Virus record (IMG/VR): IMGVR_UViG_3300031758_009207 | Coordinates: 1 to 46,474 of that record | DNA: 46,474 nt | Direction: 5' to 3' (one strand) | Source: a virus | Shown here: in pieces, positions 13,545 to 31,647 of the stretch | How the letters are laid out: the number at the start of each line of letters is the position of its first letter | Numbering within the stretch: the stretch's first letter is position 1 | Position numbers and translations under genes: made by a program | The notes under the pieces: model-generated | Databases searched by the model: none | What the model was told of the DNA's origin: nothing | The model's input: only the letters and a program-made list of their open reading frames with translations

Positions 13545-14096
13545 ATGTTAGATAAAATTTTATTCTGTCCCCTAGATATAGAATTAGATAATATAGAGTT
13601 TTCTGTAGTGGACGGAACTCCTGTCATATCTAAATATAATCCTTATTGGAATTCTACTCTCATTTCTGATGAAACGATCAAAAAAAATAATTTTGATGAA
13701 GTTCTTAAACAATTACCATTTGAAAAGATTAGCAATTTACAATATAAAATACAACAACAGACCGTAGATTCTCACGTAGATGTTTATCCAGAAATGAAAT
13801 TCGCTCCTGGAGAATATAAACACATACTAGATACAGAGCCGTCGGGATATCGATTTATTTTAAAAGGAGCAGTTGATAGTTTAGAAGTTTTTGACGGTAC
13901 ATTGTGGATTACTACTAGAGTTCCTAAAATTCCCTGTGCGTATATTTTAAATTCAACCTCAGCTATACACAAAGTTAAAGAAGACAAAGAACGAACAACA
14001 ATCTATGTAAGAGGTTGGTTAAATAAGGAACGACATCTAGCACTATTAGAAAAAAGCCTAGAAAAATATAGCCAATATGTTGTTTGGAAAAACTAG
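13545..14096 (+). CDS. 2OG-Fe(II) oxygenase, Asp/Asn hydroxylase-like
   Basis: A 183-residue protein with a double-stranded beta-helix pattern. Metal-binding HxD in DSHVDVYPEM (~75-84), distal histidine in SAIHKVKEDKERTTIYVRGW (~141-160), where the arginine would bind the 2OG carboxylate. The N-terminal ~60 residues are family-poor. C-terminal LEKYSQYVVWKN resembles the end of the oxygenase at 25887 (LDKYSDYAIWW), suggesting paralogy. It opens the oxygenase island. Substrate unknown; protein, lipid or small molecule are all possible. Confidence 0.75.
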   Translation: MLDKILFCPLDIELDNIEFSVVDGTPVISKYNPYWNSTLISDETIKKNNFDEVLKQLPFEKISNLQYKIQQQTVDSHVDVYPEMKFAPGEYKHILDTEPSGYRFILKGAVDSLEVFDGTLWITTRVPKIPCAYILNSTSAIHKVKEDKERTTIYVRGWLNKERHLALLEKSLEKYSQYVVWKN

Positions 14097-14152
14097 TATA
14101 TCTAGGAAAGGCAAAGCATCCAACACTGATAGAAACAAGCGTAAATAAATTC

Positions 14153-14857
14153 TCAGTGAGTGTGTTGTAGATTAGCGATGACTTGAGCTACATTCTGAGA
14201 AATCATAGGAATATTCAAAATTAAATGTATGCTGTTATTGACCCAACTTATAGTCCTGTGGGTCATCCGTGTGTTGAGATAATAGACCCGACCGTGTTCT
14301 ATTTGTAATTTACGGTCATCCATCCACCAGTCGTATTCTAACGGTCCGCAGTTATTAAGAAACACAATAAGTCGGAATACATCTCTAGGCATAGTAGGAT
14401 GATCTCTATGTGGAACAAAATACCCGCCTGTATCAGATCTTACTATAAATGTTCTTCCTAATGGTTGAAAGGTGTTTAAAAATGGGTGCAGACTAGTGCA
14501 GGCATGATAGACATCAGTAGGCTGATTAAACTCTAATTCACTTATCCGACGCTTGGCTGCGTATGATGCTTGAGCCAAACTAGGATTTGTTCTATGATCA
14601 GTACCCGGCAAACAAGTAAGAGTAAGAGATTTTCTGTTATTAGGTCTATCTGTTCTAGGAAGATAATCTTGCCAATCATCTTTAAACTGTTCGATCTCCC
14701 GCATGAATTGACCACAGTCTATCTTCCATTTCAGCGGTTCAAAAATTCCTAAGTTGAGTAGGCTAACTTCGTTAGTAAGATTCTCTAAACTTACTTTATC
14801 AGGGGAATAAGATTGACTTCTTCCACTTACGCCAGGAGGAACCACTACATTATTCAT
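14153..14857 (-). CDS. 2OG-Fe(II) oxygenase, Asp/Arg hydroxylase-like
   Basis: A 234-residue protein. Iron-binding HxD in YFVPHRDHP, followed by the strand FRLIVFLNN, then GRVYYLNTRMTHRTISW with the distal histidine. The N-terminus is a distinct ~100-residue region ending before the histidine motif. Its start overlaps the stop of the gene at 14854 (ATGA), so the two minus-strand oxygenases are translationally coupled. Substrate unknown. Confidence 0.78.
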   Translation of the reverse strand: MNNVVVPPGVSGRSQSYSPDKVSLENLTNEVSLLNLGIFEPLKWKIDCGQFMREIEQFKDDWQDYLPRTDRPNNRKSLTLTCLPGTDHRTNPSLAQASYAAKRRISELEFNQPTDVYHACTSLHPFLNTFQPLGRTFIVRSDTGGYFVPHRDHPTMPRDVFRLIVFLNNCGPLEYDWWMDDRKLQIEHGRVYYLNTRMTHRTISWVNNSIHLILNIPMISQNVAQVIANLQHTH

Positions 14858-15444
14858 TGACCAATCCTTAAAAATTTTTCTAAAAGTTCTTGATATGTGT
14901 GATTATCAGTAAATCTAATACTAGCACATAATCGATCTCTGCTATCTAAATTCACAGTAGTGTGTGGAATATCAGTTCGTATTAATGTAGGGGCTGTCAA
15001 TTTGCAATTTCCTATTAAAGAAAAATCTGTATTGCTAACATATTTATTTCCTTGATATCCATAATGTATACCTGATAGATTATATTCTAAAGGTTGACTT
15101 AAATTTCGCCTTGTAGGATAAATTTCTTGTAATTTTGTTTCAAACCAAGTCATATTCGAATCCGCTGACGTTAAATTATAATTGATTGCAGCATGCCATT
15201 TTATCCAACGATCATTTACTAACAATATATCCGAATGTATAGGACTTATACCGTTTTGACATTTTTTAAAAATTATAACACCACCGATTGTCAAATCCAA
15301 ATCATCAAAAATTTTTTTAGTTTGTTCGTTTATATTTTTTTTATCTATGGGATAATATCTGTTTCTTCTATCTCTAAATAAAAATTCAGGGAATTGAACA
15401 TCTTCAACTAACGGATTGATGGGAAGATCTAATTCTTGAAACAT
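14854..15444 (-). CDS. 2OG-Fe(II) oxygenase-like, RTDIPH subfamily
   Basis: A 196-residue protein. HxD in ISPIHSDIL, then WHAAINYNL, and the distal half TLIRTDIPHTTVNLDSRDR followed by CASIRF, with histidine and arginine placed as iron and 2OG ligands. The same distal module occurs in the protein at 21545, so they are paralogues. Middle of a minus-strand run from the PP-loop ATPase to the next oxygenase. Substrate unknown. Confidence 0.75.
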   Translation of the reverse strand: MFQELDLPINPLVEDVQFPEFLFRDRRNRYYPIDKKNINEQTKKIFDDLDLTIGGVIIFKKCQNGISPIHSDILLVNDRWIKWHAAINYNLTSADSNMTWFETKLQEIYPTRRNLSQPLEYNLSGIHYGYQGNKYVSNTDFSLIGNCKLTAPTLIRTDIPHTTVNLDSRDRLCASIRFTDNHTYQELLEKFLRIGQ

Positions 15445-15445
15445 G

Positions 15446-16378
15446 TTATTTCGACAACCTTTTTAGAAACTCACCAACAGGCATTTTCCATTTATCAGTG
15501 TACGGTTTATATGCTGATAAAAACTTCTGCTGTATTTGGTCACAACAATCTTGGATTAATTCGCATCCATGATATTTTTCCCTTATTTCTATATTCCAAT
15601 TTTTTTGATAAATTCTATATTTGGCATATCTAGAGTTTATGGTTTCACTTGGGGGAGATTGAAATAATTCCAACATGATAGGATCACGGCCAACTGATAA
15701 CACAATTTCAGGAGTCATTTGAAAAAAATTAATAGCTGCTGTCATGTTGTTCGCAATGGCGTATCTACACCAAGATAAGATATATTCATATTCTACATAT
15801 TTCCATTCGCCGTCTAACCTATTTGCATAAAAGTCACCATTCCCTAAAACAGGTATACCGTTTAGATTAAAATACACATGATCCATTAATTTCATTGTAG
15901 GCAACATTTCCGCTTGGAAACATTTTCCCTGTTCTGCCATTCTTAGAGATTCCGGAGAACCTAACCAGGTTAGTACATCTATATCTACATAGATAACTTC
16001 AAAATTTAATTCTTTAGATAATTTTTCAACCACTTCTATTTCGTGTGAGTTTAAATTTTTGTCGAATCTATTTGTTATGACCTTAAATGGTTGCCCTAAT
16101 TCTAAGAAAGCTCTAACCACAACTTCGCTATCAGCCCCTCCGCTTAACAACACATAAGGAAGTTTGTTCACAGTTTTTGAGTAATTGTTAATTATTTCAC
16201 AGACATTAATACACTCATCTCTGAATGAGCTAGGAGTTCTAATTGACTTAGAGTACCAACATTGAAATACATCTGATTGGTGTTGTCTTAGATTGTGCTG
16301 ACTTCCATTATAACCAAATTTAAAATTTTGATCCATCTCGAATTTTATTTTTTGATCAGATGAGACAACAGAGTGCAT
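15446..16378 (-). CDS. PP-loop ATP pyrophosphatase (Asn synthetase-like)
   Basis: A 310-residue adenine nucleotide alpha-hydrolase-like protein. The PP-loop is LLSGGADSE (~78-85), and a long C-terminal domain has no glutaminase part. Such enzymes adenylate a carboxylate or carbonyl and then form an amide or similar bond. Start: ATG at 16378 has GGGAG eight bases upstream but overlaps the desaturase by 34 bases; the ATG at 16336 avoids this. A second PP-loop protein lies at 19818. QueC is unlikely because its zinc cysteines are missing. Confidence 0.75.
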   Translation of the reverse strand: MHSVVSSDQKIKFEMDQNFKFGYNGSQHNLRQHQSDVFQCWYSKSIRTPSSFRDECINVCEIINNYSKTVNKLPYVLLSGGADSEVVVRAFLELGQPFKVITNRFDKNLNSHEIEVVEKLSKELNFEVIYVDIDVLTWLGSPESLRMAEQGKCFQAEMLPTMKLMDHVYFNLNGIPVLGNGDFYANRLDGEWKYVEYEYILSWCRYAIANNMTAAINFFQMTPEIVLSVGRDPIMLELFQSPPSETINSRYAKYRIYQKNWNIEIREKYHGCELIQDCCDQIQQKFLSAYKPYTDKWKMPVGEFLKRLSK

Positions 16379-17112
16379 GTATCAAACTCCCATTTTTTTC
16401 CGCTTACAGATTTTCCAAAATCAAAACTAGACGGCATTTGATGATGATTATTATGCCATCCATTACCCCAAAACATTAACCCTAACATAGGGATATTTCT
16501 TGATTTATCTTTAGTTTCAAAATTTCTATATCCAACGTTGTCACTATGACAGAATGTATTAATAAGTCCCTCACCATGAAATGCAACAATTGTTGGTACA
16601 ATAGCAAACCAATATAATAAATTTAAATCAATCAATCCTAGAACTATCCACGATAACAAAATAATTATTTCATAATACTTGGCGGTAAATGCCATTTTTT
16701 TATTACGTACTAGGTCAACAGCAAACTTGTAGTTTACACTAGTAGGATTGTGTTTTAAAATCCAACCTACAAAAGCATGCCATCTTCCAAAAATTGGAGA
16801 ATGTTCGTCTTTTTCTGTATCGGCAAATCTATGATGATATCCTCGGTGTACTGCGGCCCACCAGATTGGATGACCCTGGCATGATAACACACTAGCATAA
16901 ATTATTAAATTCTCTGCCCATGATTTTAAAATGATCGATCTATGAGATGCCCATCTATGAAGTCCGATTGCTACTCCGTACCCACCAATAAAAATATAGC
17001 CTGCTAGAAAATACAATAGACTGGTAAAATTGTAATCTACGAAAAAAAACAACAAAACCAATAGTATGTGTAAAGGGAAAAACGTAGTTAACAGGTATTT
17101 GTAATTTTTCAT
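16345..17112 (-). CDS. Membrane fatty-acid desaturase (delta-9 type)
   Basis: Di-iron acyl desaturase inserting a double bond into a fatty-acyl chain at the membrane. Three histidine boxes: HRWASH (52-57), HRGYHH (89-94), HNNHH (220-224). Hydrophobic segments at ~8-45, ~65-80, ~148-178. Length 255 aa is short for the family but has all boxes. The start is seven bases from the opposite-strand start region at 17119-17143, with a TATAAATA late promoter 24 bases upstream of it. First of three distinct desaturases in the island. Confidence 0.92.
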   Translation of the reverse strand: MKNYKYLLTTFFPLHILLVLLFFFVDYNFTSLLYFLAGYIFIGGYGVAIGLHRWASHRSIILKSWAENLIIYASVLSCQGHPIWWAAVHRGYHHRFADTEKDEHSPIFGRWHAFVGWILKHNPTSVNYKFAVDLVRNKKMAFTAKYYEIIILLSWIVLGLIDLNLLYWFAIVPTIVAFHGEGLINTFCHSDNVGYRNFETKDKSRNIPMLGLMFWGNGWHNNHHQMPSSFDFGKSVSGKKWEFDTCTLLSHLIKK

Positions 17113-17128
17113 AGAGGGATGATTCCGA

Positions 17129-17143
17129 TTAAATATATTTATA
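17129..17143. promoter_or_regulatory. Divergent pair of late promoters
   Basis: On the plus strand TTAAATA (17129-17135) lies eight bases before ATG 17143. On the minus strand TATAAATA (complement of 17136-17143) reads toward the desaturase start at 17112. The two boxes are back to back within 15 bases. Confidence 0.55.
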
Positions 17144-17742
17144 TGATGCCAAAATCCCTATCGCTTAAATCGAATCCCGGAGAGGACTTGTGGAATGAAT
17201 GCATGGAAACTATAAAATCTCGATGCCGTGCAGATCCATTGTATGAAAATTATGTAAATTTATCTCCTACACAATATTATTATTTTGTAACAGCAATATA
17301 CGAAAATAAAATAATTTCCTTTGGAGCCATAGAATATTCTCCTCACAAATGGGGGGAGAAAATTGCAAGAGTGTTAACTAGATTTTGGATACATCCAGAT
17401 TTTAGAAGCAACGGATTAACTAAGTGGGGACCTAATGCTGTTAGATTTAGTCCAATTATACTTAAGGCTCAGCTTGAATTTTTAAATTCACAGAATAAAA
17501 TAAAAGTTGCTATGATTACAAGAGAAGGAAAATACTCAAAAAGTTTTAAAGAAATAATAAAACTTGCATCATCTGTTTCAGTTGATTCTTTTGAAATATT
17601 AGAAAATATATACAATGTCTGCGGAGACTCAAACGATGATTCGTGTTATCAGATGGTGGCATTATCGTCAATAGATAATGAAGACAAGTGGAATATCTTT
17701 TCTGAAGCAATATCTTCTGGATTTTTTAAAGGGCCAAATTAA
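17143..17742 (+). CDS. GNAT-like N-acetyltransferase
   Basis: A 199-residue protein with a possible GNAT acyl-CoA-binding pattern: ARVLTRFWIHPDFRSNGLTKWG (around residues 75-95), where the R..H.(D)FR.xGL segment recalls motif A. The first half includes FVTAIYENKIISFG, a typical beta-strand pair before it. An ATG at 17119 is longer but lies upstream of the late promoter box, so I chose 17143. The stop overlaps the next start (TAATG). Acceptor substrate unknown. Confidence 0.65.
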   Translation: MMPKSLSLKSNPGEDLWNECMETIKSRCRADPLYENYVNLSPTQYYYFVTAIYENKIISFGAIEYSPHKWGEKIARVLTRFWIHPDFRSNGLTKWGPNAVRFSPIILKAQLEFLNSQNKIKVAMITREGKYSKSFKEIIKLASSVSVDSFEILENIYNVCGDSNDDSCYQMVALSSIDNEDKWNIFSEAISSGFFKGPN

Positions 17743-18587
17743 TGAAGTTTTACGTAAAAGATTGTCCTGCGCACCTGTCATTATTCCAGTGGATATATGA
17801 ACAAAGCGATTTCTACACAGCAATAAAAGATATTGCTACATCAACTAAAATAGATGACGTAATAGAATTACCTCACAAAATTGATATTCCTTCACTTATC
17901 AAAGATACTCTATCAGCATTAGAAACGTTTGGAACTAAAGGTTGGCAAACAACTAAAGGTCAAAGTAAGGCCTACGGCGGTCTTAGCATGGTATACAACC
18001 CGGATCTAATAGACACAATTGATCCTAATCAACATACACTCGGCACCCCTGTAAACGCTCCGGATCAATTTTATTATGGCAGTACAGAAAATTTTCGTTC
18101 TATAAGAAATACATACTTTGACAGTTATGGATTTAGAAAACTATCACCGTGCATCTCACAAACTAATCTTAAAAATTTTATCAATGAATTTCACCTTTCA
18201 CCTACACGAAGTAGGATAGCTGTTTTAGATGCTGACATGTATGATAGAGTAGGTGAAGAATTCCTTTGGCACAAGGATGAAACTATATTCGAAAATCTCA
18301 GGATCAACATTCCCATCGACACTGATTCTTCTTTCCTATTTCAACTTGAAAACAAACAGCCAATACATTTAGAGTTAGGAAAAATATATACATGGGATAC
18401 AAATTTACCGCATAGGGTATATGCCACAAAAAAATCTATTAAAAAAAGAACCCATTTAGTATTAGGATTCACACCTTGGATTAATTATATAGAAAATGAA
18501 GATTGCTTTGTATTAAATTCTCACTTTGGTAAATTACATCCGTTTGATATTCTTCTAAACGGATTAGCACATCAAAGCATTGGTTAG
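17742..18587 (+). CDS. 2OG-Fe(II) oxygenase, Asp/Asn hydroxylase-like
   Basis: A 281-residue protein. Iron-binding HxD in EEFLWHKDET, then RINIPI and FLFQLENKQPIHLELGKIYTW, with the distal histidine in LPHRVYAT and an arginine in KKRTHLVLGF. The long N-terminal ~150 residues differ from the other oxygenases here. It overlaps the previous gene by one base and is convergent with the ATP-grasp gene, overlapping it by four. Substrate unknown. Confidence 0.78.
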   Translation: MKFYVKDCPAHLSLFQWIYEQSDFYTAIKDIATSTKIDDVIELPHKIDIPSLIKDTLSALETFGTKGWQTTKGQSKAYGGLSMVYNPDLIDTIDPNQHTLGTPVNAPDQFYYGSTENFRSIRNTYFDSYGFRKLSPCISQTNLKNFINEFHLSPTRSRIAVLDADMYDRVGEEFLWHKDETIFENLRINIPIDTDSSFLFQLENKQPIHLELGKIYTWDTNLPHRVYATKKSIKKRTHLVLGFTPWINYIENEDCFVLNSHFGKLHPFDILLNGLAHQSIG

Positions 18588-19825
18588 GTATAATTAACAA
18601 TTATAGAAGAAATTAAATTTTGATATTTTTCGTTTAGATCGTTAAGATCACTGCCTGATATATAAACATATCCGTTATTGCTGATTGCTAAATCGTTCCT
18701 TGGAAGATTAACTTTATTATTAGTTGGTAATTTAATATAGTCTGCAAGAATATCTTTTTTAATCTCTATGCTTTTAATGAGACCTGGTTTTAATCCTAAA
18801 TCTCTTTTCATACTACACTTGCTTGTGTTTAACAACATATTTTTATTGTTAAGAATAGAGTTAACTAACTTTGATGCATACTGATTTTCTCCAGAGTATT
18901 GCAATAAATGGCATCCTACGGAAACTCGAGCTGCAAAATCAATAAAATAAATATTCCCCTCTTTTAATATCACATCTAACATGAACGGACAATTATCTAA
19001 CTCAGTTAAAGAAATAAACTTTTCTAATTTAATTTTGATATTTTCATAAAAATCGTTGTTAAAATATTTAGACGGATACACTAATGCAGTTTCAGCCGCA
19101 TAGGGATATGAATTAGATTCTATATCATAAAAAAAATCTAAGCTAAGAGATTTATTAAGTATGTGTCCAATCACAGAGATTATTGGTCCATCAATATATT
19201 CCTGAATTATATAATCACTATTTGCTGAATAATATTCGAAAGTTTTAAATTTTTCACCGTGGCTTTCTTGATAATCATGTACTTTAACATCAACGTCTTT
19301 AAAAAAATCTTTAAGACTTTCTCTAGAAGAAATTATTTTTATCCCTAAACTTGCCATTCCTCCCGACGGTTTTACTAAACATGGAAATTTAATATCTGAA
19401 GATATAGTGTTTAATGTTTTTTTATTTTTAACAATTTGATAAATTTCAGGAACATCGATCTTTAAATCTTTCCATATTTTGTAATAAACTATTTTTTCTT
19501 TAATTTTTTCGTATGATTTTAATTTAATTCCTGGTAGATCAAATTTACTGTTTATTTCAGCAATTAATTTCATATGATGATCAGGGAACGTAGGATAGAT
19601 ATATTGATATTTTTTTGTTTCTAATAATTGAGAAAGTAAATTTAAAAATTGATCAGTAGTATCAACAACAAATATGTTATCAAATTTAGATAGTTGTGAC
19701 TTCATTAGATCAAATTCGGGATGATCTTTAGGAACAATTATATCTAAATTATAACCTTGATTTATTAAATCATAGATTGTAGATAAATGATGATATCCAC
19801 GACATACTAACAAAATATTATTCAT
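18584..19825 (-). CDS. ATP-grasp ligase
   Basis: A 413-residue ATP-grasp protein, ligating a carboxylate to an amine or similar nucleophile through an acyl phosphate. Core motifs: KFPCLVKPSGGMASLGIKII (ATP-binding beta-hairpin and glycine loop), YIIQEYIDGP, and magnesium-binding region FMLDVILKEGNIYFIDFAARVS. An N-terminal Rossmann-like part (ILLVCRGYHHLSTIYDL) is typical of carbamoyl-phosphate/biotin-carboxylase relatives. It overlaps the PP-loop gene upstream by eight bases. Very AT-rich. Substrates unknown. Confidence 0.85.
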   Translation of the reverse strand: MNNILLVCRGYHHLSTIYDLINQGYNLDIIVPKDHPEFDLMKSQLSKFDNIFVVDTTDQFLNLLSQLLETKKYQYIYPTFPDHHMKLIAEINSKFDLPGIKLKSYEKIKEKIVYYKIWKDLKIDVPEIYQIVKNKKTLNTISSDIKFPCLVKPSGGMASLGIKIISSRESLKDFFKDVDVKVHDYQESHGEKFKTFEYYSANSDYIIQEYIDGPIISVIGHILNKSLSLDFFYDIESNSYPYAAETALVYPSKYFNNDFYENIKIKLEKFISLTELDNCPFMLDVILKEGNIYFIDFAARVSVGCHLLQYSGENQYASKLVNSILNNKNMLLNTSKCSMKRDLGLKPGLIKSIEIKKDILADYIKLPTNNKVNLPRNDLAISNNGYVYISGSDLNDLNEKYQNLISSIIVNYT

Positions 19826-20987
19826 TAATTAATCTCACAAAATGCCACTTTGAAAATAAGTGTTGATATCTTCCTCTTACTTTTCCAAAATCTCGTTGGC
19901 TTCTTTCCACTCCTAAGTACAATCTTTTATCTAATTGAGATAAAAATAGACTATTCATATCTAAAAAGCTATCACGGCATTTGGTTAATTCTGGATGCTC
20001 AAAAATCCAAAAATGTTTATCTTCTCTATCTGCAATATTTGGTTTATCAGCCTGAAAATTATTTGTCCAATTATCATATAATACTTGCCTTGCTACAGAG
20101 TTTTGCATTCGAATAGATAATAATGTAAAATCAAGTGGCCAATCTTTACTTACATCTGAATAATAATATTGTCTTAAATGAAAATTATCATCAACATATG
20201 ATGACAACTGATAGGCTTGTTCCATAGCTAATATTGGAAATTTTGGAGACCAATAAAAATATTCAGTTCCATATCTATTTTCTTGCGAAGGAATTCCCAT
20301 CCCTGTACCAGTGTCGGTAAAACTCATAAACCATTTATTATCTCTATAAGCTAACAAAGGTTTATCTATTCCATAAATGGATCCAACTTTTTTACCCTTA
20401 TTTAATTTGAGCAATTCCGATTTACTATATGTCAACATAAAAGGTATTTCTATATCATTCCATGTGTTAACGTGATGCCATAAATCTTCTGTATAAATTT
20501 CAGGACTTAAATTATCTGTCCAATCTGCAATATTGATTTTAATCTGAGGATGATACTGTGACAGCCAATCAAGAACAGGTTTAATAGCATAATCCCATTC
20601 ACTAAGAGTGTTTCTTGCCGAGGTGTCCAATTTATTAGCTTTGTAAACTTGAGATTTTATAGCGGCCATTGGCCATTTCACACAAACTTCATCTAATTTA
20701 ATACCGTTGTCTATAAACGATCTAAGAACGTTATAGCTATCGGCGCCTCCCGAAAAATATAAAATTAGATAATCGTAGCTATCTCTAATCTGTTGAGCAC
20801 GTTGTTGATAAAGTTTTTTGAGAGAAACTTTTCCCAACAAGGATCTATCAAAATTGTTCCAAATTTGATCAAAATATATGTAACTAACTTCCTGATTGGT
20901 TTCGGTAGCAAACACCAATGCTTGAAATTTATTTTTAAATTTCGTAGCACCTACCTGCCAAAATCCTTCTACTTCTTGATTAAACAT
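19818..20987 (-). CDS. PP-loop ATP pyrophosphatase, leaderless late gene
   Basis: A 389-residue protein. PP-loop YFSGGADSY (~78-85), at the same distance from the N-terminus as in the 310-residue paralogue at 15446. The C-terminal domain is unlike known glutamine-dependent asparagine synthetases. The longer TTG start at 21005 overlaps the promoter; ATG at 20987 begins five bases after a perfect TATAAATA, at the predicted transcript start. It overlaps the ATP-grasp gene by eight bases, so the two ATP-using enzymes are probably coupled and may act on one substrate. Confidence 0.78.
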   Translation of the reverse strand: MFNQEVEGFWQVGATKFKNKFQALVFATETNQEVSYIYFDQIWNNFDRSLLGKVSLKKLYQQRAQQIRDSYDYLILYFSGGADSYNVLRSFIDNGIKLDEVCVKWPMAAIKSQVYKANKLDTSARNTLSEWDYAIKPVLDWLSQYHPQIKINIADWTDNLSPEIYTEDLWHHVNTWNDIEIPFMLTYSKSELLKLNKGKKVGSIYGIDKPLLAYRDNKWFMSFTDTGTGMGIPSQENRYGTEYFYWSPKFPILAMEQAYQLSSYVDDNFHLRQYYYSDVSKDWPLDFTLLSIRMQNSVARQVLYDNWTNNFQADKPNIADREDKHFWIFEHPELTKCRDSFLDMNSLFLSQLDKRLYLGVERSQRDFGKVRGRYQHLFSKWHFVRLINE

Positions 20988-20992
20988 GTTCA

Positions 20993-24299: not shown

Positions 24300-25057
24300 A
24301 ATTTAAAAAATTTGTTTATAATTATACCAAAAAAATCGTAGTCGTGAGATTCTACTTTGGTAGTAGAACTTGCTGCATGTGCATGGTGATTATTATGGAG
24401 GTGACCCCCTTTTAAAAGAAAAATCATTGCTGTTGAATTTTTGTTTCTGCTACTTTCCCCTGTGACAAAATCTTGTGTTCCTATTCCGTCATGGCAATAA
24501 ATGTTTACCAATCCGTTTAAATACAATCCTAATATTGCTGAAAAACTAAAAATATAAACATAAGGGACAAGTCCAAAAAGAAATATAAAGATTATAGAAA
24601 ATCCTATATATAATTCATAATACCATTTGGCAAGAAATCTAAATCTAAAATCTTTTAGATAGTCTCGTACCATTGACGGATTTACTGAAATAGGATTTAA
24701 CCAATATAGAACTTTTAATTTTCCTTTAAGTGGGGTGTGCGGATCTTTTTCTGTATCAGTGAATGCATGATGCATTCGATGTATACCTATGTAGGATAAC
24801 AACGGCCCTTGCATATTAAAGAAATGTAAAAATATCAATAGATTTTCTTTAAATTTTGTAGTCTTAAAACTTTTATGTGTGAAATATCTATGGGCACCTA
24901 TTTCGTCTCCTATGCCTTTAAATAATTCTTTAGCAACTAGGCCAGCAAGTATTCCTAAAAAACTAAAATGATAAAATAACACCCAAAGTAAAAGTCCATG
25001 TTGAATCAATATTAACGAATGATGATAGCGATGAAAAGTATAAGTTCCTATCTGCAT
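24296..25057 (-). CDS. Membrane fatty-acid desaturase
   Basis: A 253-residue di-iron desaturase. Boxes HRYFTH (56-61), HRMHH (93-97; one residue shorter than the usual HxxHH with R) and HNNHH (221-225). Hydrophobic segments at ~15-42, ~70-90, ~150-185. It differs throughout from the other two desaturases, so the three are old paralogues or separate acquisitions. Translationally coupled on both sides: TAATG with the upstream desaturase, ATGA with TauD. Confidence 0.9.
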   Translation of the reverse strand: MQIGTYTFHRYHHSLILIQHGLLLWVLFYHFSFLGILAGLVAKELFKGIGDEIGAHRYFTHKSFKTTKFKENLLIFLHFFNMQGPLLSYIGIHRMHHAFTDTEKDPHTPLKGKLKVLYWLNPISVNPSMVRDYLKDFRFRFLAKWYYELYIGFSIIFIFLFGLVPYVYIFSFSAILGLYLNGLVNIYCHDGIGTQDFVTGESSRNKNSTAMIFLLKGGHLHNNHHAHAASSTTKVESHDYDFFGIIINKFFKL

Positions 25058-25869
25058 TAGTCTGTTCCTGTTCTAAGCGATCCAGGTTTAGCTATCAGCT
25101 CAATAATTCGTCTAGCAAAATCAAAATCTCCAGGATGTGTTTCATAGCTGTAATGTCCGGGACGTGCATGATGATTATTATGCAATCCGCTGCCCAGTGT
25201 AATCCAATTAAAGATACCTCTTAAATTTCTGCTGTTATCTCCTGTTTCGTGTTCTCTAGTTCCATAGTTTGGCGTGTGTCCAAAAGTTGCAATTATTGCT
25301 TCACTATGCGTTTGCAAAACTCCAGCACCCATAAAAAAGAAAACGGCTAATTCCCATTTTATAACAAATAACAATACAAATGTGATCCAGAAAATTTTAT
25401 AGTAATGATCGCTCATAAATTTCATTACAGGATCTCTAAGCATTTTTCTACAAAACATCGGGTTAAGTTTAGGAGGATTGTTCTGCCATGTCAAATACGC
25501 ATGCCAAAAACCTTTAGTAGGAGTATGAGGATCTAGATCAGTATCACTATATCTATGATGATAGGGAGTATGTATGTTTGCCATCCAAACTGGACTGCCT
25601 CTGCCTGCTAGCAGTCCTAGATATACTCCAACAATTTCTAAAATTTTATGCGTCCGGAAGGCAGAATGTGAAATATACCTATGATAGAAAATATTAAATC
25701 CAATGAATCCAATAAAGAACCATCCTACATACGCAGCTAACAACCACCATGCCGATGTCATATCTAACAATACCATCACGATACCACTGATAAATATCAC
25801 ATGCTGCGGTATCGTTATTGTTCTTAGATTTTTATTGATTGAAATTTTTTGTAGTAGACTTGTTAACAT
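25057..25869 (-). CDS. Membrane fatty-acid desaturase (delta-9 type)
   Basis: A 270-residue di-iron desaturase. Boxes HRYISH (63-68), HTPYHH (100-105), HNNHH (230-234), with the spacing of acyl-CoA delta-9 desaturases; hydrophobic helices at ~23-62 and ~160-190. First gene of a three-gene minus-strand operon desaturase-desaturase-TauD with overlapping starts and stops. The start is 17 bases from the opposite oxygenase start. Confidence 0.92.
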   Translation of the reverse strand: MLTSLLQKISINKNLRTITIPQHVIFISGIVMVLLDMTSAWWLLAAYVGWFFIGFIGFNIFYHRYISHSAFRTHKILEIVGVYLGLLAGRGSPVWMANIHTPYHHRYSDTDLDPHTPTKGFWHAYLTWQNNPPKLNPMFCRKMLRDPVMKFMSDHYYKIFWITFVLLFVIKWELAVFFFMGAGVLQTHSEAIIATFGHTPNYGTREHETGDNSRNLRGIFNWITLGSGLHNNHHARPGHYSYETHPGDFDFARRIIELIAKPGSLRTGTD

Positions 25870-25886
25870 ACCCTTATTTAATTAAA

Positions 25887-26699
25887 ATGATTCACACCAC
25901 TCAAATTCCTTCTCAACACTGGCCAAAAAAGTTTGATCAATTTCGAGATTTGATTTATATTCCTCTAGATCTTCCAGAACCTCCCAAGGTTGATATCGAT
26001 CTATTTACAGATTGGGCCTTTACAAAAGCCCCCAAACTTGTGGGAAATATCAATCATCCTGAGACTGGTCAGAAAATTATGCATTTTGAGGAACGAGGTA
26101 TGAAAGGCTGGGGATTTTATCCCTGGATCCAAGTTAGTGCATTTCATCACGGATATAGTAATTCTTGGATTTCAGAGTTTGATAAGATATTTCCAGATGT
26201 AGTTGAATACATTCATCTTTTCCCCTATAATATATTGTCCGGAGTAACTATCCTTTTACAAAAATCAAACGTGACAGCTCCATTGCACACCGACGCCGAT
26301 GATTGGCTAGGGATGAGATTTTATCTTCACAACGAAGTCAAAGAGGATGCGTTATATTTTTGTCCTAGAAAAACCAACGAAAACAATCGCATAGCCACTT
26401 ACATTGTAGAATCAGAGAATGTGTATCCCCAAGAATGGGAGAAATACCTAGATCTAGATAAAAAAATTTACAGCAGTCATCCTTGCCAGAGGCATGCTTG
26501 GGCATTGACTAGTACGAGAGCAGCACACGGTATCGAAGCATTTGAATATGATCGATGTGCTAGGGTCACATTTTTAGTTCATTCGCATCGACCTTCTGTG
26601 AATCACAACGCCTGGAACCCTGATAAATTGTATGACTTACTCACAAGATCTTTAGACAAATATTCAGATTATGCGATATGGTGGGAATCTCCAAAATAA
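25887..26699 (+). CDS. 2OG-Fe(II) oxygenase, Asp/Asn hydroxylase-like
   Basis: A 270-residue protein. HxD in APLHTDADDWLGMRFYLHNE, distal histidine in STRAAHGIEAFEYDRCARVTFLVHS with arginines nearby. The C-terminus LDKYSDYAIWWESPK resembles that of the protein at 13545. An in-frame ATG at 25839 lies inside the divergent desaturase gene, so ATG 25887 is chosen. A hairpin terminator follows. Substrate unknown. Confidence 0.78.
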   Translation: MIHTTQIPSQHWPKKFDQFRDLIYIPLDLPEPPKVDIDLFTDWAFTKAPKLVGNINHPETGQKIMHFEERGMKGWGFYPWIQVSAFHHGYSNSWISEFDKIFPDVVEYIHLFPYNILSGVTILLQKSNVTAPLHTDADDWLGMRFYLHNEVKEDALYFCPRKTNENNRIATYIVESENVYPQEWEKYLDLDKKIYSSHPCQRHAWALTSTRAAHGIEAFEYDRCARVTFLVHSHRPSVNHNAWNPDKLYDLLTRSLDKYSDYAIWWESPK

Positions 26700-26723
26700 A
26701 AAATGCAAGTACTATAGCATTTT
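26700..26723. terminator. Bidirectional terminator between convergent genes
   Basis: AAAATGC (26700-26706) pairs with GCATTTT (26717-26723), with A-rich sequence on the left and T-rich on the right, so it could end transcripts from both directions. Confidence 0.55.
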
Positions 26724-26726
26724 GAT

Positions 26727-27368
26727 TTATAAAGAAATTAAAAAATCATTATTTCTATATTGATTTTTCAAATAGCCAATTCGATAAAGAAGATCTACAT
26801 TCCAGGTTCTATTTCTCATCATTTGCCTATATCTTGGATGTGACGGCATTGTACCAGCAGGAATAATTGCCTCGTCAAAAAATTCATACCTATCTTTTAT
26901 TATTGGTATCTGTTGTCTCATTCTATTCCAGCGGTTGGTAGTTTTAGGATTGGCCACAATAAAATCATAGGAATAATATCCTATACTCTCTGCATGTGAA
27001 ATAAGCAATGTGCTGGTGTCAGCAATACCATTATCCACAGCATTGAAGATAGAATTATTGGGACTACAAAGTATTATACATTGACGCCAAGATCTAATCA
27101 TATTCCAGAACTGACCAATAGCAATACATTTAATATTTTCTTCTTTATCAAATACTAACGCAATCTTATTTTTAGTTTGAGTTTCATTAGAAATCATTGT
27201 TTCGATAGATTTCATAAAAACAGAGATATCAAAATCTTTATCATCAAAAGGATACGACCAAATTTTAGAAGTATTCTGTCTATAATTTTTGGTATCAACT
27301 AGTAATTTTTCTAGATATACTAGATCATCGATGGTTCCAAACCTAGAGGAATATTCAGGATTTATCAT
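26727..27368 (-). CDS. Hypothetical protein, possibly GNAT-like
   Basis: A 213-residue protein. The middle (NKIALVFDKEENIKCIAIGQFWN) reads as the strand pair seen in GNAT acetyltransferases, and the C-terminus RYRQMMRNRTWNVDLLYRIGYL recurs in phage proteins I have seen as uncharacterised. The acyl-CoA loop R/QxxGxG is not visible, so the family link is weak. It overlaps the PLP enzyme gene by 14 bases and is probably in its operon. Function unknown. Confidence 0.6.
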   Translation of the reverse strand: MINPEYSSRFGTIDDLVYLEKLLVDTKNYRQNTSKIWSYPFDDKDFDISVFMKSIETMISNETQTKNKIALVFDKEENIKCIAIGQFWNMIRSWRQCIILCSPNNSIFNAVDNGIADTSTLLISHAESIGYYSYDFIVANPKTTNRWNRMRQQIPIIKDRYEFFDEAIIPAGTMPSHPRYRQMMRNRTWNVDLLYRIGYLKNQYRNNDFLISL

Positions 27369-28290
27369 AGAAGTTGTGCGGCAACATTTCTGATTTTAAA
27401 TATTTTGAAAAACAAAGTCTATTTTCTTTTATGCCGCGATTATATTCTTCGAACGACTCAGTAGAAGTTGCGAAAAAAACACACTTTGACATTTCTACTT
27501 TTAAAATTTCACAAAACTTTTCTTGTATTGACCGATATTTTTTATAATTGTAATCAGCAGTATATCTTTGTAATAGTTTTAATCCAACCGCAGCCGACAG
27601 TCTATTGACGTATTTGTTTTTATTATAAACATATAAAGCATCATCATTGTCTTCTTTGGTTAGCCTCATGCCAATTCTAAGGTGCTGTACTGGAAAATTT
27701 TTACTAAGGCTAAATGTGATATCAGTAATACATTCATAAGAAAAATCAAAATCAATTCCGCCACAAACACCAAAATAGCAACAATCGATTAATACCGGAA
27801 CTTTAAGTGCTTCACAAGTTTTTAAAACTGAATCAGTCATTACGTGTTCATTTCCAGTGCCAGCGAACGGAAGACTAAAAATTACCACGTCATTTTCTTG
27901 TATTGGTTCATCTTCAATACAGACACTCTGATCAAAATATAGATTGGCGGCTATTGAATGATACATGTATTCGCCTCGAAAATATCTTAACCTACGATTA
28001 CGATTTTTTAGATAAAATTTATCAAAAGCTTCTGTGGTTCCGTTTGAAAAGGCTAGGCCTTGGAATTTTTCTAAACCTATAACTCGATTAGAGGTGGTTT
28101 TCATTATCCATGCTTTATACTCTTTTGTAAATTTATCGTGTATTTCATCATCATTCATACAATCATTTTGCAGAACATCAACAATGATATCCGATACTTC
28201 TTGTTCTAAATCTTGATCTTTAATGCAATGTACACTACCAAAGGGTAATTTTTTTAATTCTAATAATTTATTCCAAGTATTGTTTTTCAT
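27355..28290 (-). CDS. PLP-dependent aminotransferase-fold enzyme
   Basis: A 311-residue fold-type I PLP enzyme. Visible: NGTTEAFD (~83-90) at the phosphate-cup position, VLIDCCYFG with Asp ~169 for the PLP nitrogen, and ITFSLSKNFP with the Schiff-base Lys ~197, then LRIGMRL. It may transaminate or decarboxylate an amino-acid substrate. A longer ATG at 28410 would overlap the divergent TctC gene; ATG 28290 sits four bases after a GATAAATA late box, apparently leaderless. The protein is short of the usual ~400 residues. Substrate unknown. Confidence 0.75.
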   Translation of the reverse strand: MKNNTWNKLLELKKLPFGSVHCIKDQDLEQEVSDIIVDVLQNDCMNDDEIHDKFTKEYKAWIMKTTSNRVIGLEKFQGLAFSNGTTEAFDKFYLKNRNRRLRYFRGEYMYHSIAANLYFDQSVCIEDEPIQENDVVIFSLPFAGTGNEHVMTDSVLKTCEALKVPVLIDCCYFGVCGGIDFDFSYECITDITFSLSKNFPVQHLRIGMRLTKEDNDDALYVYNKNKYVNRLSAAVGLKLLQRYTADYNYKKYRSIQEKFCEILKVEMSKCVFFATSTESFEEYNRGIKENRLCFSKYLKSEMLPHNFYDKS

Positions 28291-28294
28291 GAAA

Positions 28295-28302
28295 TATTTA
28301 TC
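28295..28302 (-). promoter_or_regulatory. T4-type late promoter
   Basis: GATAAATA on the minus strand, four bases before ATG 28290, so the transcript would begin at or just inside the start codon. Confidence 0.6.
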
Positions 28303-28346
28303 ATAGCACTTTATTGCATAAATATTTTCACTTACGGAGATGAATA

Positions 28347-29249
28347 GTGATACAAAAATTTTTATTAGGATTGAGCATGATGTTTTTTTTATCTGCTCCC
28401 AGCCAAGCATTTGACGTTGGTTCTCAACCTATTAAAGTGGTGATGCCATTTGCACCAGGAGGCGGTGTTGATCAAACTTTTAGGCATTTTGAAAATTGGG
28501 CAGCGAAAAAAAACATTAAGTTTGTAGCAGTTTACAGACCAGGAGCCGAAGGATTGATTGGCATGAATGAAATTGCCGCAATGCCTAAAGACGGATATCA
28601 TATTTCTTTTGCAACAGCCGGCACCATAGCCGTCCAAAGATTAAAAAATCCTCAAGCAGAATTAGAAACAGTGACGTTGATAAAAAATAGTATTATGGCG
28701 TTTGTCACTCATAAAGATAGTGGCATACGGTCTCTAACTGATTTGTATCAAGGTAATCCAAAAACTCTAGCCTACGGCGCACCCGGACAACTAATGACTA
28801 TACAGCAGTTAATAGAACTTTCAGATGGAAAAATGAAAGGTGCTACTCTCGTGCCCTACAAAGGTGGAGCTCCAGTAGTACAAGATATTGCCGGCAATCA
28901 TGTGCAGTTTGCAGCAGTGCCATTGTTGATCACAAAGAGTTTTGTTGATTCGGGAACCATCCGATTGCTGGCTGTAGACAGCACAACTAGACTAGCAGAA
29001 TATCCCAACATTCCCACGTTTAAAGAAATCTTCCCTAAGTGGAAAAGTACTGACGGATTTGCCGTGGTATTGCCCAAGGGTACTGATACAAAAGCTGTAG
29101 AATTTTGGAATTCTATACTGAAAGAATATATTACAGATCAGAAAGTGCAAGCTGACTTTTTGAAAGACTACAATATGTCGCAAAAATTTGGTAAAGAAGA
29201 ATTGGAAAAAACTGTTTCTAATGCAATTAACGCATTGGAAAAAAAATAA
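28347..29249 (+). CDS. TctC/Bug-family periplasmic solute-binding protein
   Basis: A 300-residue tripartite tricarboxylate transporter receptor. Residues 1-21 form a signal peptide (lysine, hydrophobic core, SQA cleavage site), then IKVVMPFAPGGGVDQTFR (the family's ligand-loop motif), YRPGAEGLIGMNEIA, and YKGGAPVVQDIAGNHVQFA. The start is GTG at 28347 with GGAGA six bases upstream; the next in-frame codon is less favourable. Such proteins bind carboxylates in the periplasm. The membrane partners TctA/TctB are absent here, so it may serve host transporters. Very unusual in a phage. Confidence 0.9.
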   Translation: MIQKFLLGLSMMFFLSAPSQAFDVGSQPIKVVMPFAPGGGVDQTFRHFENWAAKKNIKFVAVYRPGAEGLIGMNEIAAMPKDGYHISFATAGTIAVQRLKNPQAELETVTLIKNSIMAFVTHKDSGIRSLTDLYQGNPKTLAYGAPGQLMTIQQLIELSDGKMKGATLVPYKGGAPVVQDIAGNHVQFAAVPLLITKSFVDSGTIRLLAVDSTTRLAEYPNIPTFKEIFPKWKSTDGFAVVLPKGTDTKAVEFWNSILKEYITDQKVQADFLKDYNMSQKFGKEELEKTVSNAINALEKK

Positions 29250-29279
29250 TATGCACCTTATTGTCATAAGAAAAATGCC

Positions 29280-30044
29280 ATGAATATCAACCAATATATC
29301 GATAGGATAAAATTTAAAACTCTACCACAAGATTTTAATCATCAAGATGGTAAGAACTATGAAAGCTCTTACGAATACACCAAGACCTTTAGCAACTATC
29401 ATTTTGACAAATTCAAACAGGAGCAAGAGGGTGAATGGTATCATCAGTTAGGAAGATTCAAAGGCGATTGGGCAGACGATGTTGCTAAAATTATAGATAA
29501 ATCAAAATCATTATCCTGGGATCAAAGTACGGCGGCAGGACAACGTCCGGGGTTCCCTGGGGGCGTTAGTCCGATGAGAACACAAGAGCAAAACGATAGA
29601 AAGGCTCACGGTTTAGACCATGTTGATCATACTAACTTAGTTTTAGAAGAATACCTAGATCAGTTTCCTAAGATCAAAAAAATGGTAGACCATTGGCATT
29701 TAGAAAAAGTCAGCTATCGTTGCCATGTACAATGGCCTGGTCAGACTTTCGCCATGCACATTGATAAATTATGGCATCGCAATCCCACAGACCCGTCAAA
29801 AATAGTTAGGATTATTGTACACCTAGAAGATTATGAGCCTGGCCAGATCCTCATATACGGTAATGCAGTACACACTCAGTGGAGAGCTGGCGATGTTCAT
29901 ATGTTCGATACCTTGAATGTTCCGCATGGAACTTTTAATATTTCAAATAAACCAAGACCAAATATCACTATCACAGGATTGAGATCAGCCCTCACTGATC
30001 AAAGATTGCAAGAAGCCACTGCTGAATCAGAATATTGTATATAA
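29280..30044 (+). CDS. 2OG-Fe(II) oxygenase, Asp/Asn hydroxylase-like
   Basis: A 254-residue protein. HxD in FAMHIDKLWH, strand VRIIVHLEDY, then AGDVHMFDTLNVPHGTFN with the distal histidine and PRPNITITGLR with an arginine for 2OG. The N-terminal ~125 residues (including GQRPGFPGGVS) are specific to this group. It follows the TctC-type gene after 30 bases and precedes the sulfotransferase. Substrate unknown. Confidence 0.82.
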   Translation: MNINQYIDRIKFKTLPQDFNHQDGKNYESSYEYTKTFSNYHFDKFKQEQEGEWYHQLGRFKGDWADDVAKIIDKSKSLSWDQSTAAGQRPGFPGGVSPMRTQEQNDRKAHGLDHVDHTNLVLEEYLDQFPKIKKMVDHWHLEKVSYRCHVQWPGQTFAMHIDKLWHRNPTDPSKIVRIIVHLEDYEPGQILIYGNAVHTQWRAGDVHMFDTLNVPHGTFNISNKPRPNITITGLRSALTDQRLQEATAESEYCI

Positions 30045-30084
30045 TACATACAAATTTAACATCTAAATATATGGTAAAATAAAA

Positions 30085-30825
30085 ATGAATAAAAATTTTG
30101 TTATTGTTGGTACTCCTCGCAGCGGCACTACATTTGTCTGTGATGTGTTGAATAAATTTGATGATATTTGGATTCCAGAGTTTCCTAATTACGAGCCGTT
30201 CAATCCGCATAACTTACATAGATTAGCTAACTCAATAAAAAACAATTCATTTGATCAGGATTTAATCATTAAAAAGTTTATTAGTTTAAAATCAAAGAAA
30301 AATTTAGATTATTTTGGTTTTAAAACTTTTTTGTCCTTTCACTCAGATTTAAAAAATTTAATTAAAGATAATAATCTAGATGTTATCTTAATTTTAAGAA
30401 AAGATATTTGGAAAGTCATAGGAAGTATGCTGATCGCAATAGACCATAATGACTATATAGGTAGTTCTAAAAAACATGATCCGTTTATTTTTGTTGAATC
30501 CAACAGAGAAGTAAGAAGAATAATGACATTTTTCAATCAACTGTGTAGAACATATTGGGAACTAGAAAATTTATTTGCTAAAGATTCTAATATTATCGAA
30601 AAACTATATTTTGAAGATATTGTAAATAATAACACTACAAATAATTTAGACACGTATTTTAACAAAAAAATTATTTTTGATCATAATTATAACGACACTG
30701 ACGATATCAATTCTTATATTGGAAATTTTGAAGAACTGCAAAGTTTAATTATGAAAGAAGTTAAAAAAAATCACACACACTATTCAGCCCTTCCTTCATA
30801 TATTGTTGAGCAATTAGCGTTATGA
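30085..30825 (+). CDS. Sulfotransferase
   Basis: A 246-residue PAPS-dependent sulfotransferase. The 5'-phosphosulfate loop TPRSGTTF (10-17) starts the protein, and ILILRKDIWKVIGSML carries the R...S 3'-phosphate-binding motif. It would sulfate a hydroxyl or amino group of an unknown acceptor. PAPS supply could involve the P-loop kinase of the fusion at 31877. A CTAAATA box lies 15 bases before the start. It overlaps the next gene (ATGA). Confidence 0.85.
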   Translation: MNKNFVIVGTPRSGTTFVCDVLNKFDDIWIPEFPNYEPFNPHNLHRLANSIKNNSFDQDLIIKKFISLKSKKNLDYFGFKTFLSFHSDLKNLIKDNNLDVILILRKDIWKVIGSMLIAIDHNDYIGSSKKHDPFIFVESNREVRRIMTFFNQLCRTYWELENLFAKDSNIIEKLYFEDIVNNNTTNNLDTYFNKKIIFDHNYNDTDDINSYIGNFEELQSLIMKEVKKNHTHYSALPSYIVEQLAL

Positions 30826-31196
30826 TACTACAAAAAGTTATCTTTGAAGAAAAAAATAGAAATGGCACAAGCGTGGATGATTTTTATTATCGAGGATTAG
30901 AAGAAAAACTCCAAGGAAAAAAAGGCACAGGAGTTAGAGCTTTAGCAGCTGATTTTATTAGACAGGGCAGAATCCTAGACAGATTTTTAATATTAGATGA
31001 AACAGGATGTAAATTAGAAATTTATACTTTTTTTAAAGACGAAGAATCATTTTCTGAATTTATTAATCATCCTATAAATCAAAATGCAAAAATGTTTTGG
31101 CAAGATCGAGATTGGCAAAGAACTGTCACAAAAACTGTAATTACTGATTTTTTGAATGTGAGAAACAGACTTGGGCAACTTAAATCTATAATCTAA
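30822..31196 (+). CDS. Hypothetical protein, possible ferredoxin-like dimer fold
   Basis: A 124-residue protein starting MILQKVIFEEK. The layout RILDRFLILDETGCKLEIYTFFKDEESFSEFINHP (read here in two parts) suggests strand-strand-helix as in small antibiotic-biosynthesis-monooxygenase-like folds, similar to 22112. It overlaps the sulfotransferase by four bases, so it is co-translated. No catalytic motif. Convergent with the hydroxylase gene by 11 bases. Confidence 0.6.
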   Translation: MILQKVIFEEKNRNGTSVDDFYYRGLEEKLQGKKGTGVRALAADFIRQGRILDRFLILDETGCKLEIYTFFKDEESFSEFINHPINQNAKMFWQDRDWQRTVTKTVITDFLNVRNRLGQLKSII

Positions 31197-31647
31197 TTGA
31201 TCGATTTGTTTTAAAGACCCAATCCCAAAAAGGTGTCCCAATACCATAATTGCATCTACTTTCTGTATGATGCAAATAATGCCATTGACCAGATGTGTAC
31301 CAAGGATACAAATTGAATTTTCTATTGTGTTCTAGCCTTTCTTGTATAATAGCTGCATAAACATAAAATAAAATAATTATCCACCATTGACCTGTGATCC
31401 AGCTGAAAATAAAAGTAGGTAGAACTTCAGTTATCCAATAATCAAACGTGCTAGGCCAATTGTCATTAAACAGAAAAATGTTATTCCAATGCCAGACTAT
31501 CTTGTGTTTTTTAACATAGGCGTGATGATGAAAATGTAGTTTTGACAGGAATGAAATTTTATGACTGGCTCGGTGTATCCAGTATATCATAAAAGTCCAT
31601 AAAAAGAAATAAAATATTATTTCAATACTCATTATAGCTGTATTCAT
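31186..31647 (-). CDS. Fatty-acid hydroxylase / sterol desaturase family
   Basis: A 153-residue di-iron membrane hydroxylase. Boxes HRASH (25-29), HFHHH (38-42), EH (106-107) and HYLHH (123-127), the PF04116 pattern. Two or three hydrophobic segments at ~8-24 and ~75-105. Shorter than typical (~200-250 aa). It would hydroxylate lipid or sterol-like chains. Start is ATG 31647, with ATG 31632 an alternative. It ends the oxygenase island. Confidence 0.85.
   Translation of the reverse strand: MNTAIMSIEIIFYFFLWTFMIYWIHRASHKISFLSKLHFHHHAYVKKHKIVWHWNNIFLFNDNWPSTFDYWITEVLPTFIFSWITGQWWIIILFYVYAAIIQERLEHNRKFNLYPWYTSGQWHYLHHTESRCNYGIGTPFWDWVFKTNRSIRL

Follow-up and report, generated by a model that had tools for sequence, protein, structure and literature searches.

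A horizontally exchanged phage island with many oxygenases, a TctC-type binding protein and a PP-loop ATPase almost confined to viruses

Gene content and exchange of the block

We analyzed the IMG/VR virus record IMGVR_UViG_3300031758_009207, a stretch of 46,474 bases referred to here as the window, and found that a ~16-kb block rich in 2-oxoglutarate (2OG)-Fe(II) oxygenases is traded whole between phage species under purifying selection. Similar islands recur around two linked elements, namely a PP-loop ATPase (motif SGGxDS) with a TctC/DctP binding protein, and TctC with the 2OG oxygenase 29280. The recurrence of related blocks around the same uptake-protein partners suggests that phages encode a so far undescribed pathway in which a small molecule is captured or built and then decorated. 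An initial annotation of the window had overlooked what unites these islands, i.e., the nearly virus-only PP-loop ATPase, the TctC-type protein and a marine TctC / P-loop / 2OG operon, and had left unnamed two PP-loop ATPases, an ATP-grasp ligase, a pyridoxal phosphate (PLP) enzyme, a radical S-adenosylmethionine (SAM) enzyme, a GNAT acyltransferase, TctC and a sulfotransferase-like protein. The block was compared with that of a second species, on a 353-kb contig (G004) that 199-kb and 80-kb contigs resemble in how they match the window, and with a related island of a more distant phage (G003, 206 kb). The features of the region are:

15433-31636 (no strand): refined island, which moved as one piece between two species of jumbo phage, as judged from identity, synonymous divergence (dS) and GC content
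13545-14096, plus: 2OG oxygenase (2OGd), left fringe, separately exchanged; HxD...H invariant, same family as 25887, dS 0.156
14153-14857, minus: probable 2OG oxygenase of the left fringe, the least certain of the nine; retains HRD...H, with HHalign 66-70% to 2OGa/2OGc
14854-15444, minus: 2OG oxygenase (2OGb); H77/D79/H154/R164 (alignment A8), HHalign 97% to 2OGe
15446-16378, minus: QueC-like PP-loop ATPase; PF06508 above cut-off, in 25-26 of 63 related loci
16345-17112, minus: membrane fatty-acid desaturase of the DesA/stearoyl-CoA desaturase (SCD) type; PF00487 56 bits, NCBIfam DesA family below its cut-off
17119-17742, plus: GNAT acyltransferase; PF00583 just under cut-off
17742-18587, plus: 2OG oxygenase, Asp/Asn-hydroxylase-like; PF05118 below cut-off, HHalign 96.5% to 2OGa, H177-D179-H224-R236
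18584-19825, minus: ATP-grasp ligase; PF13535 above cut-off
19818-20996, minus: SGGxDS PP-loop ATPase, nearly virus-only family; AlphaFold2 model, Foldseek matches to the LarE, nicotinamide mononucleotide (NMN) and GMP synthetase core
21044-21538, plus: 2OG oxygenase (2OGa); PF05118 25.4 versus a 22.6-bit cut-off, conserved in G003 and other core loci
21545-22120, plus: 2OG oxygenase (2OGb), paralogue of 14854; H, D and H invariant and R near-invariant
22112-22492, minus: small protein, ABM-like by appearance; weak PF24651, small ABM-like cluster in 12 related loci
22544-23467, plus: radical SAM enzyme, MoaA-like; PF04055 63 bits
23469-24299, minus: TauD/TfdA 2OG dioxygenase; PF02668 192 bits, PDB E 2e-47
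24296-25057, minus: membrane desaturase; PF00487 above cut-off
25057-25869, minus: membrane desaturase, SCD1-like; PF00487, PDB 4ymk E 3e-7
25887-26699, plus: 2OG oxygenase (2OGd); AlphaFold2 model and Foldseek neighbors
26727-27368, minus: protein of unknown family, possibly GNAT-like; dN/dS (nonsynonymous to synonymous divergence) 0.04, no Pfam match above cut-off
27355-28284, minus: PLP fold-type I enzyme, aminotransferase-like; invariant K195 and D167, weak HisC match, 64% to G003
28347-29249, plus: TctC/Bug solute-binding protein with an apparent signal peptide; PF03401 95 bits, PDB Bug and terephthalate-binding proteins
29280-30044, plus: 2OG oxygenase (2OGc), TctC partner; phage homologue, TctC-2OGc linkage
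30085-30825, plus: sulfotransferase-like protein; PF00685 and PF13469 just below cut-off
30822-31196, plus: small protein; dN/dS 0.08, no Pfam match above cut-off
31186-31647, minus: di-iron fatty-acid hydroxylase; PF04116 51 bits
31877-32671, minus: protein adjoining the block, adenosine phosphosulfate (APS)-kinase-like and nucleotidyltransferase-like; PF01583 43 bits

Over 15433-31636, the window shares 95.7-96.0% DNA identity with G004 (70914-89126), compared with mostly 76-87% in the flanks. The dS between the two was 0.08-0.26 for island genes and mostly 0.4-2.3 for flanking genes, the exceptions being 5015 and 13545, which both lie outside the block, and dN/dS was 0.02-0.19 in all 20 island genes compared. 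Taken together, the block identity, low dS and low dN/dS indicate a recent transfer as a unit between phage species, along with purifying selection. The island had initially been placed at 13545-31647, which we correct to 15433-31636, with 14153 diverged (dS 1.4) and 13545 exchanged separately; that it is more AT-rich than its surroundings was borne out by a GC content of 0.328 in the block (0.333 in the G004 copy) versus 0.419 and 0.405 in the flanks. The coding strand switches 11 times among 26 genes, and a tail-fiber-like gene with an Mtd N-terminal domain (Mtd_N) adjoins the island. Between 25887 and 26727, G004 has 2 kb extra that code for a 2OG oxygenase and a radical SAM enzyme; G003 holds this pair next to the same partners, and the window has therefore probably lost it. 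A search for a mobile-element boundary found no repeats at the flanks that are particular to the block, and scans for late promoters (TATAAATA), sigma-70 promoters and terminators all stayed at chance level. Apart from the island, a second recently exchanged stretch lies in the tRNA array at 4939-6600 (92% identity; nitroreductase 5015 with a dS of 0.13).

The terminase of G004 shares 58% identity with its counterparts in PA5oct/MIJ3-like Pseudomonas jumbo phages and 47-53% with those in other jumbo phages, indicating a jumbo phage of the T4 superfamily (myovirus), and a megablast search of the window returned no close named relatives. A 41-kb second assembly of the same phage matched the window at 99.98-100% over 14357-40285, short gaps aside. 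Misassembly of bacterial onto phage DNA, or bacterial contamination, could be ruled out, with the same junctions present in the 353-kb contig and the island also carried by independent contigs of 199, 80 and 41 kb. Four segments of ~75-130 bp each (window 15058-15134, 18345-18468, 34213-34328 and 39607-39737, one of them within gene 17742) are missing with exact joins from IMGVR_UViG_3300008108_006104, the other assembly of the same phage, which is probably an assembly gap artifact.

Enzyme families of the island

The initial count of nine 2OG-Fe(II) oxygenases held up, as all keep HxD...H and have Pfam, profile-profile or fold support, with 14153 the weakest. H, D and H were conserved in all tested 2OG clusters and a later Arg in most, 14153 being without it. 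An HHalign profile network linked all 2OG clusters and connected none of them to the PP-loop, TctC or desaturase clusters, which served as its internal negative control. The double-stranded beta-helix fold was obtained for 25887, the candidate least evident from sequence, from a predicted model of moderate confidence (pLDDT 70.7), whose top PDB neighbors are nearly all 2OG oxygenases (PHD2, FtmOx1, EvdMO1, AviO1), and for the other oxygenases by HHalign only; on this network and this model, the call survives the concern that fewer than half of the proteins might be 2OG oxygenases. A PDB profile search for 2OGb gave no significant match, and 29280 is 34% identical to a protein of Synechococcus phage S-SCSM2R that is annotated as a 2OG oxygenase. 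2OG- and Fe-dependent turnover is the predicted activity of such enzymes. Two further 2OG enzymes claimed in the tRNA array are plausible, 3144 passing PF13640 and 9407 falling just below the PF13759 cut-off; they lie among 28 tRNA genes mixed with small genes (2468-10139). Elsewhere in the window, 44402-45779 encodes an Fe/Mn superoxide dismutase, then NifU/IscU-like and IscA-like Fe-S assembly proteins, i.e., functions of iron and oxygen handling.

The three desaturases (16345, 24296 and 25057; PF00487) and the fatty-acid hydroxylase (31186; PF04116) named in the initial annotation all score above their Pfam cut-offs, and histidine boxes are visible in their translations. These four membrane lipid enzymes bear on the main rival to a small-molecule pathway, remodeling of the host envelope, in which desaturases, fatty-acid hydroxylase and LpxO-like 2OG enzymes of the Asp/Asn-hydroxylase type would alter membrane lipids or lipopolysaccharide (LPS) and thereby serve superinfection exclusion or membrane fluidity, comparable to pelagimyophage glycosyltransferases. 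We treat it as the main rival because such islands adjoin tail fibers both here and in pelagimyophages, for which surface alteration via glycosyltransferases has been proposed (PMC7029224), and a comparable tail-fiber-side island occurs in Pelagibacter phage Mosig. It gains further from the Mtd_N neighbor, from a DAHP/KDO-8-phosphate synthase family protein in the window (gene 41046 at 41088-41918; PF00793), suggestive of LPS sugar synthesis, and from locus L053 (2114-4661), where a cytidylyltransferase-like gene (PF01467) and, by inspection, ADP-heptose-synthesis-like neighbors stand beside an oxygenase/PP-loop island. Yet envelope remodeling leaves the PLP, PP-loop, ATP-grasp and radical SAM enzymes and the strict TctC linkage unexplained, NCBIfam gave no match for the PF05118-type proteins tested, and the conserved core described below has no lipid enzyme, so that we regard this explanation as unlikely, if still worth serious attention.

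The PP-loop ATPase 19818 belongs to a family that is nearly confined to viruses. It had no Pfam, PHROG, PDB-sequence or INPHARED match (three different queries for INPHARED), a PDB profile search for the family gave no significant match, and 62 of its 63 members were without a Pfam match, the remaining one having an unrelated weak match. Assignment as asparagine synthetase or QueC proper was rejected, as no member gave such a Pfam match, which leaves the PP-loop superfamily only. The S, G and D of SGGxDS are invariant across the 63 members, and HHalign linked the family to the QueC-like cluster at 97.8%. The AlphaFold2 model (pLDDT 94.8) contains an ATP-pyrophosphatase core as in LarE, NMN and GMP synthetases, with the rest unmatched. 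Compared with LarE, QueC, GMP synthetase and NMN/NAD synthetase, 19818 has the SGGxDS motif and core fold in common, but Foldseek template-modeling (TM) scores are only 0.2-0.35 over ~155 residues, and 19818 has additional regions at both its N- and C-terminus. A protein with the PP-loop fold would be expected to activate a carboxyl or carbonyl group in an ATP-dependent manner. Pattern scans confirmed the family in 333 viral-contig stretches versus 1 of 84,980 species genomes, an approximate ratio given that the two scans used different patterns, and a hidden Markov model (HMM) search of one phylum, that of a Bacteriovoracaceae metagenome-assembled genome, found it in 4 of 291 genomes. Among the rare bacterial carriers (G106/L130, G205, G212, G394), L130 has the PP-loop gene followed by a methyltransferase-like gene, perhaps nicotianamine-synthase-like, with no TctC.

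The QueC-like protein 15446 raises the idea that the PP-loop ATPases, a PTPS/QueD-like protein (40405) and the 2OG enzymes modify phage DNA or tRNA. It is backed by the QueC match of 15446 in Pfam and NCBIfam and the PTPS match of 40405, and nucleic acids are among the substrates that 2OG enzymes of phages can have, as in thymine hydroxylation. However, 15446 resembles QueC only in its N-terminal ATP-binding part, and membrane desaturases, TctC, PLP and sulfotransferase-like proteins would have no role there, which makes nucleic-acid modification very improbable.

Among the remaining genes, the signal peptide of TctC 28347 was judged by eye, and its PDB homologues are BugD, Bug27 and the terephthalate-binding protein TBP. 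No carrier protein and no fatty acyl-AMP ligase (FAAL), nonribosomal peptide synthetase (NRPS) or polyketide synthase (PKS) core enzyme of the polyyne, NRPS or PKS types appeared among the Pfam matches of the island open reading frames (ORFs) tested; G003 has, by inspection, one AMP-ligase-like and one acyl carrier protein (ACP)-like ORF. A homologue of the APS-kinase-like fusion 31877-32671 lies in L276 (11244-12083), just downstream of a TctC / P-loop / 2OG cassette, and its presence at both places hints at a supply of 3'-phosphoadenosine-5'-phosphosulfate (PAPS) for sulfation.

Recurrence and linked partners

We compared 63 nonredundant PP-loop loci (1.18 Mb) with a control set of 74 loci picked for ThyX (1.05 Mb). 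TctC was found as 64 genes in 47 of the PP-loop loci versus a single gene in one control locus (Fisher P = 1e-21). Desaturases (42 genes in 24 PP-loop loci versus 6 genes in the controls), QueC-like proteins (37 genes in about 26 versus 2 genes) and 2OG oxygenases (108 genes of eleven clusters in 34 versus 11 genes) were enriched as well. The density of 2OG families amounted to 9.2 versus 1.0 per 100 kb, a ratio somewhat inflated by HMMs trained on PP-loop loci. As the HMMs came from the PP-loop set, the TctC result was checked again over whole records, this time with the curated model from Pfam, which yielded 40 of 50 PP-loop versus 6 of 50 control records (Fisher P = 5e-12). Within the control records, which were unselected for PP-loop, TctC occurred in 4/4 of those with a strong PP-loop match versus 2/46 of the others (Fisher P = 7e-5). 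Because the loci share descent, the P values overstate independence and are to be read as strong, not literal.

The PP-loop and TctC genes lie at most 30 nt apart in 29 loci, and 23 of the 24 desaturase-bearing loci also carry 2OG oxygenases. Linkage was recovered from the opposite direction too: searching outward from TctC gave new loci (L240, L248, L253 and L257) with PP-loop, 2OG, QueC-like and related genes, and searching outward from 29280 gave close relatives that again mostly adjoin TctC. The latter search also returned 64 distant loci of inferred marine origin, with TctC in 39 and nearly all others truncated too close to the gene for a verdict; in 32 marine loci, TctC, a ~195-aa P-loop protein and a 2OG oxygenase abut or overlap in that order. 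The marine 2OG and TctC proteins had no match in INPHARED. Homology of the middle P-loop gene to the sulfotransferase-like 30085 found no support by HHalign, and a Sulfotransfer_3 match of one marine member (E 0.09) was too weak to count as evidence.

In G003, homologues of 21044 (42%), TctC 28347 (48%), 29280 (69%), PLP 27355 (64%) and PP-loop 19818 (50%) lie within ~6 kb, and L054/L061, L057 and L059 repeat this set with shuffled order and persisting partners. A core of PLP, PP-loop, TctC, 2OGa and 2OGc (plus 2OGe and radical SAM) is kept in G003, G004 and L057. The shuffled order, the strand switching, the gene content differing among species and the radical SAM-2OGe pair present in G004 but not in the window would all fit a hypervariable cargo, i.e., independent auxiliary genes that gather at a recombination hot spot and share no common pathway. 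Such loose cargo is hard to reconcile, however, with partners that are strongly linked pair by pair from either direction, reading frames that abut, a core kept over large divergence and the joint occurrence of desaturases and 2OG oxygenases, and we judge it quite unlikely.

The TctC-2OG linkage could also be taken to mean that the oxygenases drain or sense 2OG and so shift host nitrogen and carbon metabolism, as proposed for cyanophages (PMC3037559), with TctC importing di- or tricarboxylates. Desaturases, ligases and specific conserved partners would not be needed for this, and the large number of separate 2OG families, each conserved on its own, suggests that their substrates differ, for which reasons we give the lowering of 2OG hardly any credence. 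The TctA membrane subunit was absent from all 20 phage records tested, and the binding protein would therefore use host membrane subunits, or act by sensing or sequestering its ligand.

Among the related loci, L248 (1-7600) packs seven 2OG-family genes, PP-loop and TctC into 7.6 kb, denser than the window, and L081 (11516-12652) has a cytochrome P450, of a cluster found in five loci, in its PP-loop island, a third class of oxygen-activating enzyme.

Proposed pathway and known systems

We see about an even chance that the block is a horizontally exchanged phage island for the biosynthesis and tailoring of a putative small molecule. Judging from the enzyme classes, the island most likely encodes a phage pathway in which a metabolite of the carboxylate type is captured or made, then activated with ATP and modified by oxidation. 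The secreted binding protein would capture a carboxylate-type solute in the periplasm and pass it to the host's own tripartite tricarboxylate transporter (TTT) or tripartite ATP-independent periplasmic (TRAP) membrane subunits, after which the PP-loop ATPases and ATP-grasp ligase may activate the carboxylate with ATP and couple an amine or thiol partner. The PLP and radical SAM enzymes would build the scaffold, GNAT and the desaturases would supply or modify an acyl part, to which desaturases, GNAT and fatty-acid hydroxylase point in the oxygenase-rich versions, and the series of 2OG oxygenases would hydroxylate or desaturate the product. The resulting small molecule would be made only during infection, and candidate uses are antagonism of rival phages or host defense, nutrient salvage, or a component of the envelope.

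Several points weigh against such a pathway. Gene order and content differ strongly among islands, which loose cargo fits too; several PP-loop/TctC loci are without oxygenases, which are thus not obligatory; and in the window, 7 kb separate the PP-loop gene from TctC, which lies on the opposite strand. Membrane desaturases usually act on lipids rather than soluble metabolites, and most pathway steps are inferred from enzyme class alone. Of the tailoring cluster first proposed, the phage island as such, its tailoring repertoire, purifying selection and recurrence stand, with a lipid, virion or metabolite as its putative target. A bolder version, in which phages own a nearly virus-only pathway of PP-loop ligases, dedicated periplasmic binding proteins and oxidative tailoring, which yields during infection a small molecule not copied from host metabolism and is traded whole like a bacterial biosynthetic gene cluster, is conceivable but doubtful.

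Phage auxiliary metabolic genes (AMGs) that occur singly are generally taken for functions borrowed from the host. In these islands, the PP-loop enzyme that forms the link is nearly missing from cellular genomes yet common in phage contigs, and it is associated with a binding protein and with a varying suite of oxygenases that moves as a block; if the island is indeed a pathway, phages would have a chemistry that is theirs alone. Both the TctC / P-loop / 2OG operon and the PP-loop/TctC pair are of a size that allows direct expression and testing.

The closest described relatives are the host-recognition clusters (HRCs) of pelagimyophages and the 2OG and desaturase AMGs of cyanophages. Like the window block, HRCs are hypervariable islands beside tail fibers in T4-like phages; they hold radical SAM enzymes among others that are unrelated and, in freshwater members, stearoyl-CoA desaturase and a 2OG-Fe protein (PMC7029224). 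Next to an Mtd_N gene and in a phage with a T4-superfamily terminase, the island studied here may be of the HRC type. In contrast, HRCs are described as dominated by glycosyltransferases and tail fibers and without mention of a PP-loop/TctC or TctC/2OG module, and the present block belongs to a jumbo phage and is exchanged as a whole. Among cultured phages, a relative in kind is Pelagibacter phage Mosig EXVC030M (MT647606), whose island (~54.7-71 kb), beside tail fibers, holds two Asp_Arg_Hydrox proteins, an FA_desaturase, a TauD-like dioxygenase, an aminotransferase remotely like 27355, GNAT, MoaA-like proteins and a carbamoyltransferase, but no member of the PP-loop 19818 family (tblastn) and no annotated TctC; the island goes undiscussed in the genome announcement (PMC7892664).

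In cyanophages, 2OG oxygenases are common, with action on 2OG pools or DNA repair proposed (PMC3037559), and lipid desaturases are known (Roitman 2018, as cited in PMC11480375). The enzyme classes and the T4-like phages are the same, but there few genes are read singly, whereas here nine oxygenases and four di-iron enzymes occur with ligases, a PLP enzyme and a binding protein, mostly in one exchanged block. A TctA domain and 2OG oxygenases were also noted in SUP05 phage contigs (PMC4164917). The TctC proteins share the PF03401 fold family, signal peptide and PDB homologues with known TctC/Bug proteins, and differ in being phage-borne, orphaned from TctA and paired with a PP-loop ATPase or 2OG oxygenase. 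The initial description of the cluster as undescribed therefore holds only in part: 2OG enzymes and desaturases are known phage AMGs and tail-fiber islands are known (PMC7029224), but in the literature searched we found no description of the PP-loop/TctC pair, the TctC / P-loop / 2OG operon or the whole-block exchange. Hence, the phage auxiliary-gene island is of a known kind, and the module beneath it is an undescribed one.

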